Assembly (NCBI GenBank): GCA_003551565.1
Contig: PUMZ01000305.1
Location: 1-35,960 of the forward strand
Length of the DNA stretch: 35,960 nucleotides
Reading direction: 5' to 3'
Origin: Candidatus Brocadiaceae bacterium
GTDB taxonomy: Bacteria; Planctomycetota; Brocadiia; SM23-32
The notes beneath the pieces are model-generated. The model searched no databases and had not been told where the DNA came from. It saw nothing but the letters and a program-made list of their open reading frames with translations. Made by a program: the position numbers and the translations under genes. Numbering within the stretch: the first letter of the stretch is position 1; each line of letters starts with the position of its first letter. Below are positions 9,603 through 34,358 of the stretch, piece after piece.

Positions 9603-9768
9603 GCGCTCAGCATTTCCATATCGACAACACATTGCCGGCGCATTGAAAGGGTGAAGCCGTTTGCCGTTGCCGTAAGTTGTTGCCTTTGTTATTTATCCTT
9701 TTTCAAGTTTTGCTTTGAAAAAAGAATGGGGTTTTTCGTGTTTTGCCCCGTCCGGGGGACAGATCGTT

Positions 9769-10233
9769 ATGCGGGAAAAGGGAGCGAGACTGTACTGGAT
9801 ATTGCCCGGCAGACTTGCCGGTATGGCGCATCCGGGCCAGAGCGATGCTGTGCTGGACGGATTGCGCGAGGCCGGAATCGGTGCGATCGTCACTCTTACG
9901 CAGAGGGCGCTGAGCGGAGAGGCGGTCAATAAATTCGGATTTGAATATTTGCATTTGCCGGTTAAAGATTTTTGCGCGCCCGCCCCCGGTCAGGTGGAGC
10001 GTTTTGTACGTTTTTGCGATGAGCAGACAGCCGCCGGCAGGGCGGTCGCTGTGCATTGCAGGGCCGGGATAGGCCGCACCGGCGTTATGCTGGCATGTTA
10101 TCTGGTGCATCTGGGCGAGGAACCGCGTGCGGCGATACGCAAAGTGCGCAAAGTGCGGCCCGGCGCGCTGGAGAGCGCCGAGCAGGAAAATGCTGTCTAT
10201 GAGTTCGTGGCGGTTGATCACGGTAGTTCTTAG
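9769..10233 (+). CDS. Dual-specificity protein phosphatase, DUSP23-like
   Basis: HCRAGIGRTG (HCX5R) P-loop, WILPGRLAGMAHP N-terminus, VRPGALESAEQENAVYEFV. Start chosen at MREKGARLYW with GGGGGA upstream; longer ORF from 9715. Confidence 0.85.
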   Translation: MREKGARLYWILPGRLAGMAHPGQSDAVLDGLREAGIGAIVTLTQRALSGEAVNKFGFEYLHLPVKDFCAPAPGQVERFVRFCDEQTAAGRAVAVHCRAGIGRTGVMLACYLVHLGEEPRAAIRKVRKVRPGALESAEQENAVYEFVAVDHGSS

Positions 10234-10437: not shown

Positions 10438-11274
10438 ATGTATTTTTCGGGCATATCGGATGAAGCCGGCAAGGATATCGATACACAGATCAGGGCGCAC
10501 CGGGAACTGGGATGGAAACACATTGAGCTCCGAAATGTTGATGGTGTGAATGTGACCGACCTTTGCGATGAAACTTTTGAAGTTGTCTCCGGGAAGGTCG
10601 CATCAGCGGGTCTTGCCGTCTCTGATTTTGGTTCCCAGTTATGCAACTGGTCGCGGCCGATTACCAAGCATCCCGGGATCGACGTCCAAGAGTTGAAACG
10701 GGCTGTGCCCAGGATGCATCAACTGGGATGCAAGTACATACGCACGATGAGCTATCCCAATGCCGGATGGCCGGACGAACGGTGGAGGCGCGAGGTGGTC
10801 GAGCGCCTGACGGCGCTTGCGGCGATAGCCGAAGATAACGGTATCGTTCTTGTCCACGAAAACTGTGACGGGTGGGGCGGGCAGGGTCCCGGTCAGACAC
10901 TCGAGTTGCTCGAGTCGGTGGGTTCGGAAAGTTTGAAACTGGTGTGGGATACGGGCAATCCGATTGCACATGATCAGGACGCTTGGGATTATTACAGGCA
11001 GGTCCGGGACCACATCGTGTATGTCCATATCAAGGATGCTGTCAAAGAGCCGGACGGGGGGATACGTTATACTTTTCCGGGTGAAGGAGACGGCCGGGTG
11101 CAAGATGTCCTGTCCGATCTCAAAAGCAGGGGCTATCAGGGGGGGCTGTCGATTGAGCCGCACCTTGCCGCCGTTGTTCACGAGGGCAAAGAGGCCTCTT
11201 CGGAGCAGCGGGCTTACACGACGTATGTTGAGTATGGACGGCGGTTGATGGAGCTGGTGGACCGCATTGATTGA
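10438..11274 (+). CDS. Sugar phosphate isomerase/epimerase (TIM barrel)
   Basis: VLVHENCDGWGGQGPGQTLELLE, LVWDTGNP, VYVHIKDAV and GGLSIEPH patterns; SD AGGAGAG. Confidence 0.85.
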   Translation: MYFSGISDEAGKDIDTQIRAHRELGWKHIELRNVDGVNVTDLCDETFEVVSGKVASAGLAVSDFGSQLCNWSRPITKHPGIDVQELKRAVPRMHQLGCKYIRTMSYPNAGWPDERWRREVVERLTALAAIAEDNGIVLVHENCDGWGGQGPGQTLELLESVGSESLKLVWDTGNPIAHDQDAWDYYRQVRDHIVYVHIKDAVKEPDGGIRYTFPGEGDGRVQDVLSDLKSRGYQGGLSIEPHLAAVVHEGKEASSEQRAYTTYVEYGRRLMELVDRID

Positions 11275-11296
11275 GGCTGTGGCCGGAGGCGATCAA

Positions 11297-12316
11297 GTGA
11301 CCGATGCAATCGATCCCGTAAAGAGCATAGAGAAAATTTATCATGAAGAGATGCGGGAGATTCCATATCCCGTTTTCATGAAATGTTTTGACAGGCTTTT
11401 TGTTGAAACGCCCCATTCCGCCGCCCCTCCCGCCGCCGAATTAAAGAAATATTTTCGGGCGGTTTGTATGGCCGTGGAAAGGGGCATTGCCGATTATGAG
11501 CGGCGTGGCGCCGACAGGGTGAAAGAGTTTTATGAGACGGTTTACCCCGTATGGAAAGATGGCATGCCGGAGGGGGAGTTCAGAGAATTCCAGAACATCC
11601 TTGACGGCAGCGGGGAGGGAACAAGCCGTCAGCGCGAGATCGGTGCTCAGCCGGATATTATCGGGGGCGGGGAGGGGATTGATTATGAATGCGAAGGTGG
11701 CTATCCCGATGAAGTGCACAGGAAGTTCGAGCGTGCTTTCCGGTCTGCGCTCGAGGCGGAAGGACGGAAGGCGGGCGGCGGTGAAGAGGGTCGTGGAGGA
11801 GACTCTGAGGATGGGGAACGTGCCGAAGCGCAACCGCGCAGTGCGGGCGTAACGGGCGAAGATGTGCCGGTATTTTCGTCCGCGAAGCATCTCTCGGAAG
11901 CCGTATCGGCCGGAAAGGTGGCGCTGAGTTATACGGATATGTCACACAAGACTCCGCTTGCCGCATACCGGCACGAGGATACACAGGTCATGGTCCGGCT
12001 GGTGCAGAGCGCGAGAGCTTATTATCTTTCGTTGACTTATCCGGCGGGGTATGCCGGCAGGGAGGATGCGGATCAGCGCATGATTGCGGTGACTTCAAGG
12101 CTGGGCTATACAGAGGTGAAGGATTGTGAATATCAACTGAAGGGGCGCAATTATTCCCTGAACTTGCTGTTTGGCGCCCGGGCCACTTATCTGGCATGCC
12201 GGACGGGGATAGGATTGAGTCCTCAATCGTTTGAAAAAGCCTTGAGCGAACTGGACAGGCATCTTCAGGAGATCGTGGAAGAATTTCGCGTGAAAAAAGG
12301 AAACGGGGGGGCTTAG
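11297..12316 (+). CDS. Uncharacterised two-domain protein with Gly/Glu/Arg-rich linker
   Basis: Open frame with GTG start preceded by GGAGG (TTG at 11267 also possible). No family recognised. Confidence 0.7.
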   Translation: MTDAIDPVKSIEKIYHEEMREIPYPVFMKCFDRLFVETPHSAAPPAAELKKYFRAVCMAVERGIADYERRGADRVKEFYETVYPVWKDGMPEGEFREFQNILDGSGEGTSRQREIGAQPDIIGGGEGIDYECEGGYPDEVHRKFERAFRSALEAEGRKAGGGEEGRGGDSEDGERAEAQPRSAGVTGEDVPVFSSAKHLSEAVSAGKVALSYTDMSHKTPLAAYRHEDTQVMVRLVQSARAYYLSLTYPAGYAGREDADQRMIAVTSRLGYTEVKDCEYQLKGRNYSLNLLFGARATYLACRTGIGLSPQSFEKALSELDRHLQEIVEEFRVKKGNGGA

Positions 12317-12363
12317 ACGACAGGTCTGGTGCGGATATCATCGGGTTAGAGCGAGGAGGGGAT

Positions 12364-13509
12364 ATGCAAAAGAAAGTTATGCTTGCATTTACCGGGGGAC
12401 TTCAATCGTCGGTCTGCTTGCACTGGCTCACCAGAAAACGCGGTGCACTGGTCACGGCGCTTATCGTCGAGCTCGGGCCGGAGACGCGGGCTTACGAACT
12501 TGGGGAAGAGGCTGTCAGGTCGGGCGCGGCGGGGGCACATGTGGAGGATTGCCGTGAGGAGTTCATCCGCGAATACGCTTTCAGGGCACTGCGCGCATCA
12601 GCCATTTATGAAAGGGGATATCTTCTCAGCGGGGCGCTTGCACGTCCTTTAATTGCGGAAGTTTTAACGCGCCTGGCCGATGAGGACGGCTTCCATTCTG
12701 TTGCGCTGGGGACATGCAGAACCAGTAATGATGCGAGCCGGTTCCGTTCCCACGTGCGGAGGCTTGCACCGCATCTGGATATAATAGCTCCGGATCAGAT
12801 CCCGCCGTTGCAGAGCCGTGATGCGGCCCTTGAATATGCCGAAAAACATGGGATTGTTCCGTTTGAAGGCACCTCGGCGGCGCTCAGCTACGATATCAAT
12901 CTGTGGGGAGCGTCGGTTGCGGCGGATCCGTCACTTGGCACATGGGAGTCGTTATCGGAGGATTATTACATTCTTACCGTCAGTGCCGAGGCTGCTCCCG
13001 AACAGCCTGAAGCGCTGACTCTGGAGTTTGAGCGGGGTACTCCCGTACGTGTTGACGGGGAGCCGATGGCCCCGAAAGAGCTGGTCGAACATCTCAATAC
13101 CCGTGCAGGCAGGCACGGGATAGGGCGCGTGGAACTGGTTGAGGACCGGCTATTCGGTTTGAAATCGCGGGAGGTTTATGAGGCGCCCGCTGCGTGTTTG
13201 CTGATGGAAGCCCTGAGGGCACTGGAAGAGCTTTGCCTCGATTATGCGACACTCCAGGTGAAAGGCGATATCGGACGTTTTTATGCCAACCTGATTTACA
13301 GCGGGGGGTGGTTTGAACAGCTGCGCGAGGCGTATGATGCCTTTTTGGAGGTTACCCGCCGGCATTTGAACGGCACCGTCGGAATGGATTTGTACAAGGG
13401 CCGCGCCGTGGTAACGGGGCGCAGTTCACCCGACAGCCTTTTTGACGGGGACGCGCTGGAGGAGTTCAACGGAGCCATCGTGCCTGTCCGCCGGAACTGC
13501 CCCCTGTAA
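12364..13509 (+). CDS. Argininosuccinate synthase-like protein (divergent ArgG paralogue)
   Basis: Alignable with ASS end to end by eye: KVMLAFTGGLQSSVCLHWL, LLSGALARPLIA, GTCRTSNDASRF, GRHGIGRVELVEDRLFGLKSREVYEAPA, TGRSSPDSLFD. SD GAGGAGG. Confidence 0.85.
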   Translation: MQKKVMLAFTGGLQSSVCLHWLTRKRGALVTALIVELGPETRAYELGEEAVRSGAAGAHVEDCREEFIREYAFRALRASAIYERGYLLSGALARPLIAEVLTRLADEDGFHSVALGTCRTSNDASRFRSHVRRLAPHLDIIAPDQIPPLQSRDAALEYAEKHGIVPFEGTSAALSYDINLWGASVAADPSLGTWESLSEDYYILTVSAEAAPEQPEALTLEFERGTPVRVDGEPMAPKELVEHLNTRAGRHGIGRVELVEDRLFGLKSREVYEAPAACLLMEALRALEELCLDYATLQVKGDIGRFYANLIYSGGWFEQLREAYDAFLEVTRRHLNGTVGMDLYKGRAVVTGRSSPDSLFDGDALEEFNGAIVPVRRNCPL

Positions 13510-13636: not shown

Positions 13637-14914
13637 ATGGATATGGATACAGCTCGCCGCGCAACGATTATCAGCACGGGTCGTGAGCTGGTTTCGGGCC
13701 GTGCTGTGGACTCCAATGCCGTTTTCCTGGCCCGTCTTCTGGTTGAAAACGGTTTTCAGGTGGGGAGAATCTGCATTCTGGGGGACAATCCGGACGATAT
13801 CACTTCCGAGATCAAGGCCGCTGCGGGCAGAGACGGCTTCGTTCTTATTACCGGCGGGCTTGGCCCCACGGCCGATGACAGGACACGCGGGGCGGTTGCC
13901 GAGGCGGTCGGAATGGAGCTGGTCCGGCGGGATGAGGCGCTGAGGTGCCTGAAGCGCACGCTCGGCAGGCACGGATTGGATCTTTGCCGGCGGCATATAG
14001 CCCAGGCCTGCACGCCCGGGCACGGCCCGGTGTTCGAAAATGCCGTCGGGACGGCCTGCGGTTTTTGTTGCCATCTGCAGGGAACAAAGGTGATAGCGAT
14101 GCCCGGGGTTCCGCAGGAGATGCGCACGATGTTTTCCGGCCACGTCCTGCCGTTTATGCTGGGAGTCTTGCGACGTTCCGCTTTGCAGGACCGGGTCACT
14201 GCCTCGGAGCGGGGCAACGTGTTCGGCCTCCCGGAGTCCAAAGTCAATTCTTTGATAAGTGATATGATGGAGCCGGGACGCAATCCGGAGCTCGGGCTGT
14301 GCGTGGAGGATGGCAGAATAGTCATTTCCGTGGTTGCCGGGGCGGTGTTGGAAGAGGAGGCCCGGGCTCTTATCGAAAAGGATGTGCTGGAGTTGCGGAA
14401 GAGACTTGGCGATGCCATTTATGGGTATGGAGATACGACTCTTGCGGCTTCACTGGGAGCGTTGCTGAAACGCGGGGGATGGCGTGTTGCTCTGGCGGAA
14501 TCCTGCACCGGCGGCCTGATCGGCGATATGCTGGTTGACGTCCCCGGAATATCTGAATCTTTTCTGCTCGACGTTGTGGCTTACAGCAATGATGCAAAGA
14601 AAACGTTGCTGGGAGTTAAGCCGGAAAGCATCGATGCATATGGTGCAGTAAGCGAGGAGGTTGCGAAGGAGATGGCGTGCGGGGTCAGCCGGATCTGCGG
14701 AGCGGATCTGGGCCTGAGCACCACCGGCATAGCCGGTCCTTCGGGCGGGAGCCCCTCCAAGCCGGTCGGCCTTGTCTATGTCGGGGTTTGTTTCCAGGGC
14801 CAGAGCCACAGTTTCCAACACAATCTCCGGGGCGATCGGAGACAGATACGCCACAGGGCGGCCTGTTATGCGTTGAATCATTTGCGTCGAATTCTTTTTC
14901 AGGACGGAGCTTGA
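13637..14914 (+). CDS. cinA: CinA family protein (nicotinamide-nucleotide amidase type)
   Basis: N-terminal MoaB/MogA-like domain (LITGGLGPTADD) plus C-terminal CinA domain (ALAESCTGGLIGDMLVDVPG...STTGIAGPSGGSPSKPVGLVYVGV). Confidence 0.93.
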   Translation: MDMDTARRATIISTGRELVSGRAVDSNAVFLARLLVENGFQVGRICILGDNPDDITSEIKAAAGRDGFVLITGGLGPTADDRTRGAVAEAVGMELVRRDEALRCLKRTLGRHGLDLCRRHIAQACTPGHGPVFENAVGTACGFCCHLQGTKVIAMPGVPQEMRTMFSGHVLPFMLGVLRRSALQDRVTASERGNVFGLPESKVNSLISDMMEPGRNPELGLCVEDGRIVISVVAGAVLEEEARALIEKDVLELRKRLGDAIYGYGDTTLAASLGALLKRGGWRVALAESCTGGLIGDMLVDVPGISESFLLDVVAYSNDAKKTLLGVKPESIDAYGAVSEEVAKEMACGVSRICGADLGLSTTGIAGPSGGSPSKPVGLVYVGVCFQGQSHSFQHNLRGDRRQIRHRAACYALNHLRRILFQDGA

Positions 14915-33038: not shown

Positions 33039-34358
33039 TCACTCCTTTAACGTGAGCTCGTATTCCGCCAGCTTGTTTTTGATCTCATCGATATATCCCT
33101 CGTCCAGGTCGTATATTGACTTCAGCTCATCTTCTTCGTATTGCGTCAGCTCCTCAAGCGTGTTGACGTTCATTTCAAGGAGGAACTGGGCAAGATCGTC
33201 GGTCAGGCCCGCATCGTTGATATTCACATCGTTCGGTTCGTTATCCGGGCTCCCCGCTTCTTCCTCCTGCCGGGAGTGTTCCGTGATTTTTGCAGGCGCG
33301 TCCGCGAGTTTTCTCCCGAACCTGGCCAGCAGGTCTTTGATCTCCTGCAGGCTGGATTGACCGAAATTTTTCAGCCCCAGCAGTTCTTCTTCTGAAATCC
33401 CGGTCAGATCGCCGAGGGTTGTGATATCCATTTTATCCAGCGCGTGAAGGCAACGGGTGCTCAGGTCGAAGCCGTCCAGAGGCTGGGCGAGGGTTTTTTG
33501 CTGCTGGGCGAGCATTGATTTCATATCTTCATCAACGGTCATGTGCAGCGCCGCATCGGCGTCTTTAAGGTATAACCTCGCCCGTTTGTGGGCGGGGTCG
33601 ACGGCCAGAACCTTTTCGTAACATTCGATGGCTTTCTCGTATTCGCTTCTGTCTTCGTAAAGGATACCCAGGTTCATCAGGGCGCCCATCGACGCGGGCT
33701 GGAGGGAGGTGCATTTCTGATACAGCTCGATCGCCCTGTCATCGTCCCCGTTCAAGTCGCAATTGAATGCAAGGCGGAAAAGGCTCTTCCGATGGTTTTC
33801 ATCCATTGAGAGCGCCTTCTCATAGCATTCCATCGCTTCGCCGTACTCGCCTTCCGCCTCCCTGACTCTTCCCATACAATAAAGCCAGTCGGGGGTTTGG
33901 GCTTTTGTTTTTTTGTAGTCTTTACAGATTTTTTCCGCCTCTTCAGCCCTGTGCAGGTTGCAGAGCACTTCGACAACCAACCTGTCGGTCTGGAAATCAT
34001 CACCTCCCGAGCGTCCGTTCTCCAGGGCTTCAAGCGCTTCTTCATAGCGGTGCAAATTGGCGAGTGCACGGCCTAAAAAATGCGATGCCTCGGTCCGGTT
34101 TTTTACCTTTTCAAGGAATTCTGCGGCGCTGGAAAACTCGCCCAGAGCGCAAGAGAAGATGCCGGCCTGTTCCACCATTGCGGTGTCGGGCTTTTTTGCA
34201 CCATTTATCTCCGACTCCATCTGTTTCAGTAAATCATGTGCCTGGTCAATACTGCGAAAAGACTCATAGATTTTCTCGACAAGATCGCCGAAATCCTGTC
34301 GTTTGACACCACCCTTAAGGGTCTGCTGAAGTTGCTGCTTTATAGTAGTTTCAGGCAT
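33039..34358 (-). CDS. TPR protein with RNA polymerase alpha-CTD-like and second HhH-like C-terminal modules
   Basis: Multiple TPRs (GEAMECYEKALSMDENHRKSLF, EKAIECYEKVLAVDPAHKRARL), then LAQPLDGFDLSTRCLHALDKMDITTLGDLTGISEEELLGLKNFGQSSLQEIKDLLARFG resembling alpha-CTD. Confidence 0.85.
   Translation of the reverse strand: MPETTIKQQLQQTLKGGVKRQDFGDLVEKIYESFRSIDQAHDLLKQMESEINGAKKPDTAMVEQAGIFSCALGEFSSAAEFLEKVKNRTEASHFLGRALANLHRYEEALEALENGRSGGDDFQTDRLVVEVLCNLHRAEEAEKICKDYKKTKAQTPDWLYCMGRVREAEGEYGEAMECYEKALSMDENHRKSLFRLAFNCDLNGDDDRAIELYQKCTSLQPASMGALMNLGILYEDRSEYEKAIECYEKVLAVDPAHKRARLYLKDADAALHMTVDEDMKSMLAQQQKTLAQPLDGFDLSTRCLHALDKMDITTLGDLTGISEEELLGLKNFGQSSLQEIKDLLARFGRKLADAPAKITEHSRQEEEAGSPDNEPNDVNINDAGLTDDLAQFLLEMNVNTLEELTQYEEDELKSIYDLDEGYIDEIKNKLAEYELTLKE

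Follow-up and report, generated by a model that had tools for sequence, protein, structure and literature searches.

The argininosuccinate synthase (ASS)-like gene in the window (the whole 35,960-nucleotide stretch analyzed here; Table 1) fairly probably encodes a catalytically dead ASS pseudoenzyme that binds a small ligand or a protein partner and acts with or near CinA. The following were computed directly: the gene is a paralogue, its catalytic residues are lost, sister lineages show purifying selection, linkage to cinA recurs, and copies are retained where no arginine pathway can be detected. With both the fold and the pocket on the citrulline side conserved, the protein most likely still binds such a ligand or partner, and gene order suggests functional coupling to CinA. 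A role other than arginine synthesis is probable because the catalytic residues are gone and copies persist even in genomes that seem to have given up making arginine.

Table 1. Features of the window in and around the ASS-like gene
Feature	Positions	Strand	Basis
Dual-specificity (DSP/PTP) phosphatase	9715..10233	+	Pfam; same position in G002
Sugar-phosphate isomerase/epimerase-like TIM barrel (AP_endonuc_2)	10438..11274	+	Pfam; same position in G002, G003, G006, G007, G008
Conserved protein, 349 aa, TTG start uncertain	11267..12316	+	No Pfam/NCBIfam match; found only in the window's family
Putative ASS-like pseudoenzyme, 381 aa (P0001)	12364..13509	+	Pfam and NCBIfam ASS models; AF2 model
Degenerate PP-loop TGGLQSS (canonical SGGLDTS)	12391..12411	+	Sequence; Gln14 codon 12403-12405
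Rewritten aspartate/ATP loop GTCRTSNDASRFR (canonical GxTGKGNDQVRFE)	12709..12747	+	Sequence comparison
Ala replacing active-site Glu (human E191, T. thermophilus E184)	12919..12921	+	Gap-free alignment S182-W192 (T. thermophilus numbering)
C-domain segment GRHGIGRVELVEDRLFGLKSREVYEAP, Glu and Tyr that bind citrulline retained	13108..13188	+	Sequence comparison
cinA (NMN deamidase/ADP-ribose pyrophosphatase), signature motifs intact	13637..14914	+	NF001813, 380.1 bits (cut-off 379); motifs

The open reading frame of the ASS-like gene starts with ATG, is free of stops, and has a plausible ribosome-binding site (GAGGAGGGG) upstream. Both ASS domains were matched (Pfam PF00764, 126 bits; PF20979, 190 bits), and full-length sequence and fold homology in Pfam, NCBIfam, and PDB searches place the protein in the ASS family by descent. 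An AF2 model computed from the window protein and 29 homologues with canonical motifs (pLDDT 87.8, pTM 0.86) aligns with solved ASS structures at TM scores of 0.87 to 0.90. The overall ASS fold recognized in the initial annotation is thus borne out, and the motifs quoted there (TGGLQSS, LSGALARP, GTCRTSNDASRFR, and GRHGIGRVE...KSREVYEAPA) are all present in the frame. The protein resembles type I ArgG (EC 6.3.4.5; NF001770/TIGR00032; 1j1z, 2nz2) in fold, in both Pfam domains, in an identity of about 40%, and in keeping Tyr84, Asn120, Arg124, Glu258, and Tyr270 (T. thermophilus numbering), but it lacks the PP-loop Asp, Thr116, Lys118, Glu184, and the C-terminal arm. Its gene, unlike that for type I ArgG, adjoins cinA rather than argH, and the genome encodes its canonical argG elsewhere. 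NCBI also sets apart a family of ASS paralogues, argG_rel (NF038212), to which the window protein, itself a paralogue, does not belong (167.9 bits, far under the curated cut-off of 425).

Scored against the T. thermophilus and human enzymes with an active-site list from PMC13289927, the window protein carries the substitutions Ser12->Thr, Asp16->Gln, Thr17->Ser, Thr119->Cys, Lys121->Thr, Gly122->Ser, and Glu191->Ala (human numbering). In the loop GTCRTSNDASRFR, the Thr, Gly, Lys, Gly, and Gln of the canonical GxTGKGNDQxRFE are replaced, including T119, K121, and G122. The change reported there in the initial annotation is therefore real but partial, because the substrate-contacting Asn-Asp and Arg (human N123, D124, and R127) persist. 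The motif changes listed in that annotation also stand, but the list had overlooked the catalytic Glu and the C-terminal tetramerization arm: the Pfam match ends at position 190 of 219, and 22 residues are left in the arm region, where full-length canonical proteins have at least 36. The window protein thus has neither the PP-loop SGGLDTS nor the intact GxTGKGNDQxRFE loop, Glu191, or the arm. In human ASS1, Asp16, Thr119, Lys121, and Glu191 are among the most substitution-sensitive residues in a deep mutational scan and in patient enzymes (PMC13289927). Since the changes fall on residues whose substitution kills the human enzyme, ASS activity has very probably been lost.

The window protein retains Tyr87, Arg95, Asn123, Asp124, Arg127, Ser180, Asp182, Ser189, Glu270, and Tyr282 (human numbering), among which are all of the citrulline-side residues (Y87, N123, R127, E270, and Y282). 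Because these residues are kept, the role as a sensor that had been suggested earlier is possible. Gly11 of the PP-loop and Arg94 (window numbering) are also still in place, and given these, residual nucleotide binding is possible. Loss of a catalytic motif with conservation of the fold, maintained by selection, is the pattern of pseudoenzymes in general (reviewed in PMC5106787 and PMC10211241), and the window protein has lost the motif and kept the fold; unlike for other known pseudoenzymes, we found no described case from the ASS family in the open-access literature.

The source genome (G000) is a metagenome-assembled genome (MAG), 88% complete with 6.5% contamination. It carries a canonical argG (SGGLDTS, GCTGKGNDQVRFD) on contig C297, which clusters in the tree with argG of the same family, and argH on contig C223, confirming the proposal that the window gene is a paralogue. 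The nearest named relatives of argG are from Gemmatales and Planctomyces MAGs, which makes Planctomycetota the probable phylum. Another species of the same genus (G002) has an orthologue that is 61% identical and shares with the window protein GGLQSS, LSGAL, and GTxxxS(N/D)DAxRFR. Since the same motifs recur in a second species at this distance, the assembly errors that the initial annotation had named as a possible refutation are ruled out as their source. The orthologue goes further, with Asn123->Asp, Thr119->Tyr, Glu191->Ser, and Ser180->Asn (human numbering); the human Ser180Asn variant has little or no activity (PMC13289927). It also lacks the C-terminal arm, and it is flanked, in the same order as in the window, by genes for the phosphatase, the isomerase, the 349-residue protein, and CinA. 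Contamination is an unlikely source of the contig, as the gene row agrees with that found elsewhere in the genus and the nearest CinA sequences come from members of the same family. Apart from this orthologue, the PP-loop Gln was absent from the compared homologues (80 loci from named genomes and 30 from related genomes), and searching 392 genomes from across the phylum turned up no other orthologue above 45% identity.

That search for relatives, in which many of the genomes were incomplete metagenome assemblies, places the window gene in an ASS lineage of 45 members across the phylum, recovered as one lineage in the tree (SH-aLRT 97). Seven members have intact catalytic motifs; the other 38 are degenerate, keep open frames, and come from as many genomes, spread over 23 families. 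With canonical ASS as the outgroup, the degenerate copies form one group and the intact ones are basal (support 84/85); with the active-site columns masked, the grouping has support of 96/74 and appears in 94% of bootstrap trees. With moderate support and long branches, a single origin of the degenerate copies is likely rather than certain. The initial annotation had pointed to a phylogeny of homologues with the QSS motif; the degenerate copies do group together, but among the compared homologues QSS itself is confined to the window protein and its same-genus orthologue. The broken PP-loops of the relatives include GGLHTS, GSLATA, GGLETT, GSLNST, GKLNTA, GGIDDV, GALDNL, GGINTT, GGRGTM, GGIVSS, and GGSFQAD, among others.

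In 27 of the 45 lineage members (23 of the 38 degenerate and 4 of the 7 intact), cinA lies directly downstream in the same direction, versus 0 of 60 other ASS genes. Genes for ychF and tatC lie upstream of the ASS-like gene in several lineages, and the cinA linkage is gone in some (f31 and f54). An apparent ASS-CinA fusion of 810 residues in G167 was rejected, as a TGA stop separates the two genes. Another ASS is carried by 34 of the 38 genomes with a degenerate copy; these second copies are of several distant types, and argH adjoins another ASS copy in G124, G086, G167, G247, G236, G077, and G188.

A divergent NF003385-like protein is the second ASS in many genomes (L279, L281, L282, L231, L232, L236, and others) and is linked to argH in some. 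It has neither the Glu nor the Tyr of the citrulline site, suggesting a different form of the substrate. A third type (PRK13820-like, EGSTGKGNDQYRMH; L117, L118, and L221-L225) accompanies the intact CinA-linked ASS in several genomes and adjoins an argH-like gene in G111 and G167. As a divergent second ASS of this PRK13820-like type occurs with 5 of the 7 intact members, the rule that a linked copy is intact only where it is the sole ASS is not strict. For two intact CinA-linked copies, arginine genes were not found in the genome (argH for L184 in G012; argB and argF for L136 in G147); divergent enzymes or missing contigs could account for this.

Conservation was tallied in the 38 degenerate proteins at 61 positions that are at least 97% conserved in 138 canonical ASS (T. 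thermophilus numbering). The PP-loop Asp12, present in 100% of the canonical proteins, is kept in 20 of the 38 (53%). Also reduced are Glu184 (13%), Thr116 (16%), Ser14 (21%), Glu189 (29%), Lys118 (32%), Ser173 (37%), and Arg150 (42%). By comparison with these, Arg92, Asp121, and Arg124 are kept in 100%, Asn120 in 97%, Glu258 and Lys265 in 95%, and Tyr84 and Tyr270 in 92%. The seven intact members keep nearly all of the canonical conserved positions. Judged from these residues, the handling of ATP and pyrophosphate appears to have decayed and the citrulline side to have been mostly spared in the degenerate copies.

In nine related pairs of degenerate copies, NG86 dN/dS is 0.10 to 0.32, versus 0.12 to 0.26 in intact-motif pairs. 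For the window gene and its orthologue in G002, dS is saturated and the ratio is not readable; the relatives and the conservation of motifs in the orthologue suggest that the window gene, too, is under purifying selection. Canonical argG, argH, argB, and argF were not found in G226 and G305, nor were canonical argG, argH, and argB in G304 (all MAGs 90 to 93% complete). The sole match to the argF model in G226 and G305 was weak and covered the model only partially, as expected of aspartate carbamoyltransferase. For argH, detection relied on TIGR00838; ASL_C2 (PF14698) was dropped as too narrow after it missed a control genome. The arginine genes are likely to be truly absent from the three genomes, more credibly so for G226 and G305, where the same genes are missing from two species of one genus. 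All three retain the degenerate gene beside cinA, in G226 and G305 at a dN/dS of 0.10.

The cluster proposed in the initial annotation (10438-13509) recurs in the same order in G002, but its limits were too short, since the row extends to the end of cinA; the neighbor conserved phylum-wide is cinA, outside those limits. The 349-residue protein is present in seven genera of the family (f1) beside the sugar isomerase and cinA and was not found in G001. It had no match in Pfam or NCBIfam, and relatives were found in genera of f1 and none outside; being confined to the window's family, it was rejected as a universal partner of the ASS-like gene. Its N- and C-terminal parts are conserved, its middle is acidic and variable, and a single-sequence AF2 model reached a pLDDT of 38. 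The row of isomerase, 349-residue-type protein, and cinA is retained without the ASS-like gene in G003 and G007. In G005 and G008, the position of the ASS-like gene is occupied by the gene for a membrane protein, about 520 residues long and unrelated to it, and the same protein follows the 349-residue-type protein at a contig end in G006 (L271, L273, and L275, respectively; no Pfam match for L275, the one searched). The ASS-like gene is dispensable in the window's family because it is missing from sister genera that keep the rest of the row, and since these have cinA, CinA works without it.

A new ligase had been raised as a possibility in the initial annotation, which argued for either a changed substrate or lost ATP chemistry. 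Such a neofunctionalized enzyme would be AMP-forming or otherwise ATP-using and act on a new substrate. The ASS family has yielded new chemistry before in ArtA, described as an ASS-like nitrile synthetase with Q146, S197, and D199 as amide-interacting residues (PMC13060819). ArtA (9leh and 9lei) is, like the window protein, an ASS homologue outside arginine synthesis, and the window model aligns with it at a TM score of 0.86. Unlike the probably inactive window protein, it is an active ATP-dependent natural-product enzyme, and by the comparison made, of fold and overall identity, the two are 27% identical. A partly retained substrate pocket and the sugar isomerase and phosphatase genes in the same row would also suit a ligase. 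Against it, a new ligase should have a shared new PP-loop, yet every lineage has its own (QSS, HTS, ATA, NST, DNL, IDD, and SFQAD, among others), with S12, G14, D16, T17, and S18 (human numbering) varying by lineage as under relaxed ATP chemistry, and K118, S173, and E184 (T. thermophilus numbering) are mostly lost too. We therefore regard a new ligase as unlikely and favor loss of the ASS/ATP chemistry. The frequent presence of another ASS and the sharing of residues between subunits of ASS tetramers (PMC13289927) would allow a dead subunit in mixed tetramers with canonical ArgG that tunes arginine synthesis, but this is improbable, given that the tetramer-building arm is lost in the window protein and its orthologue, that the second ASS is spread over several distant types, and that the gene persists in three genomes without a detectable active ASS (G226, G305, and G304).

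Ordinary isozyme redundancy, in which the window protein is still a weak ASS, is very improbable. It would fit the scores above the cut-off for the NCBIfam equivalogs NF001770 and TIGR00032 and the retention of N123, D124, R127, E270, and Y282 (human numbering), but not the combination of D16Q, T119C, K121T, and E191A with loss of the arm, nor the persistence of relatives in three genomes without detectable argH. We give hardly any credence to a decaying pseudogene on its way to loss: the branch is long and the gene is absent from the sister genera G003, G005, G007, and G008, but the frame is open, the motif is identical in two species 61% apart, dN/dS in related degenerate pairs is low, and open-frame degenerate copies recur across 23 families.

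For the pseudoenzyme that we prefer, the history may have been as follows. Early in the phylum, an ancestral ASS gene would have been the immediate upstream neighbor of cinA, preceded in several lineages by ychF and tatC, and in most genomes another ASS gene would have served arginine synthesis. The CinA-linked copy could then have shed its ATP-pyrophosphatase chemistry and stayed under purifying selection, with the fold and the citrulline-side pocket preserved, so that it may still bind a protein partner or a small molecule resembling citrulline, arginine, or argininosuccinate. CinA is described as a two-domain NMN deamidase/ADP-ribose pyrophosphatase (PMC4246079 and PMC3680494), and the ASS-like protein, instead of being a ligase, might serve with or near it as a regulator or scaffold for the recycling of pyridine nucleotides. 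More tentatively, the ATP-dead clade as a whole, ancient and phylum-wide, might consist of ligand-binding regulators or subunits of CinA that link an arginine-pathway metabolite to NMN/ADP-ribose recycling. No description of inactive ASS paralogues, of a link between ASS and CinA, or of a CinA-regulator role for the ASS fold was found in the open-access literature.

The NCBI equivalog models accept the window protein, the G002 orthologue, and both further degenerate copies tried (L144 and L182) above their cut-offs, and they would misname all four argininosuccinate synthase. Metabolic reconstructions that rely on ASS models would thus credit these bacteria with an enzyme that is probably absent; G226 and G305, for example, have no "argG" besides the degenerate copy. 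A central metabolic enzyme seems to have become a conserved nonenzyme, probably in a single ancient event, and at least 23 families have kept it, some of their lineages despite having no arginine pathway that could be detected. This raises the question of what use an ASS has without its chemistry and why it lies beside CinA. Elsewhere in the window, a gene at 33039-34358 on the reverse strand encodes tetratricopeptide repeats fused in one protein to regions like the C-terminal domain of the RNA polymerase alpha subunit.
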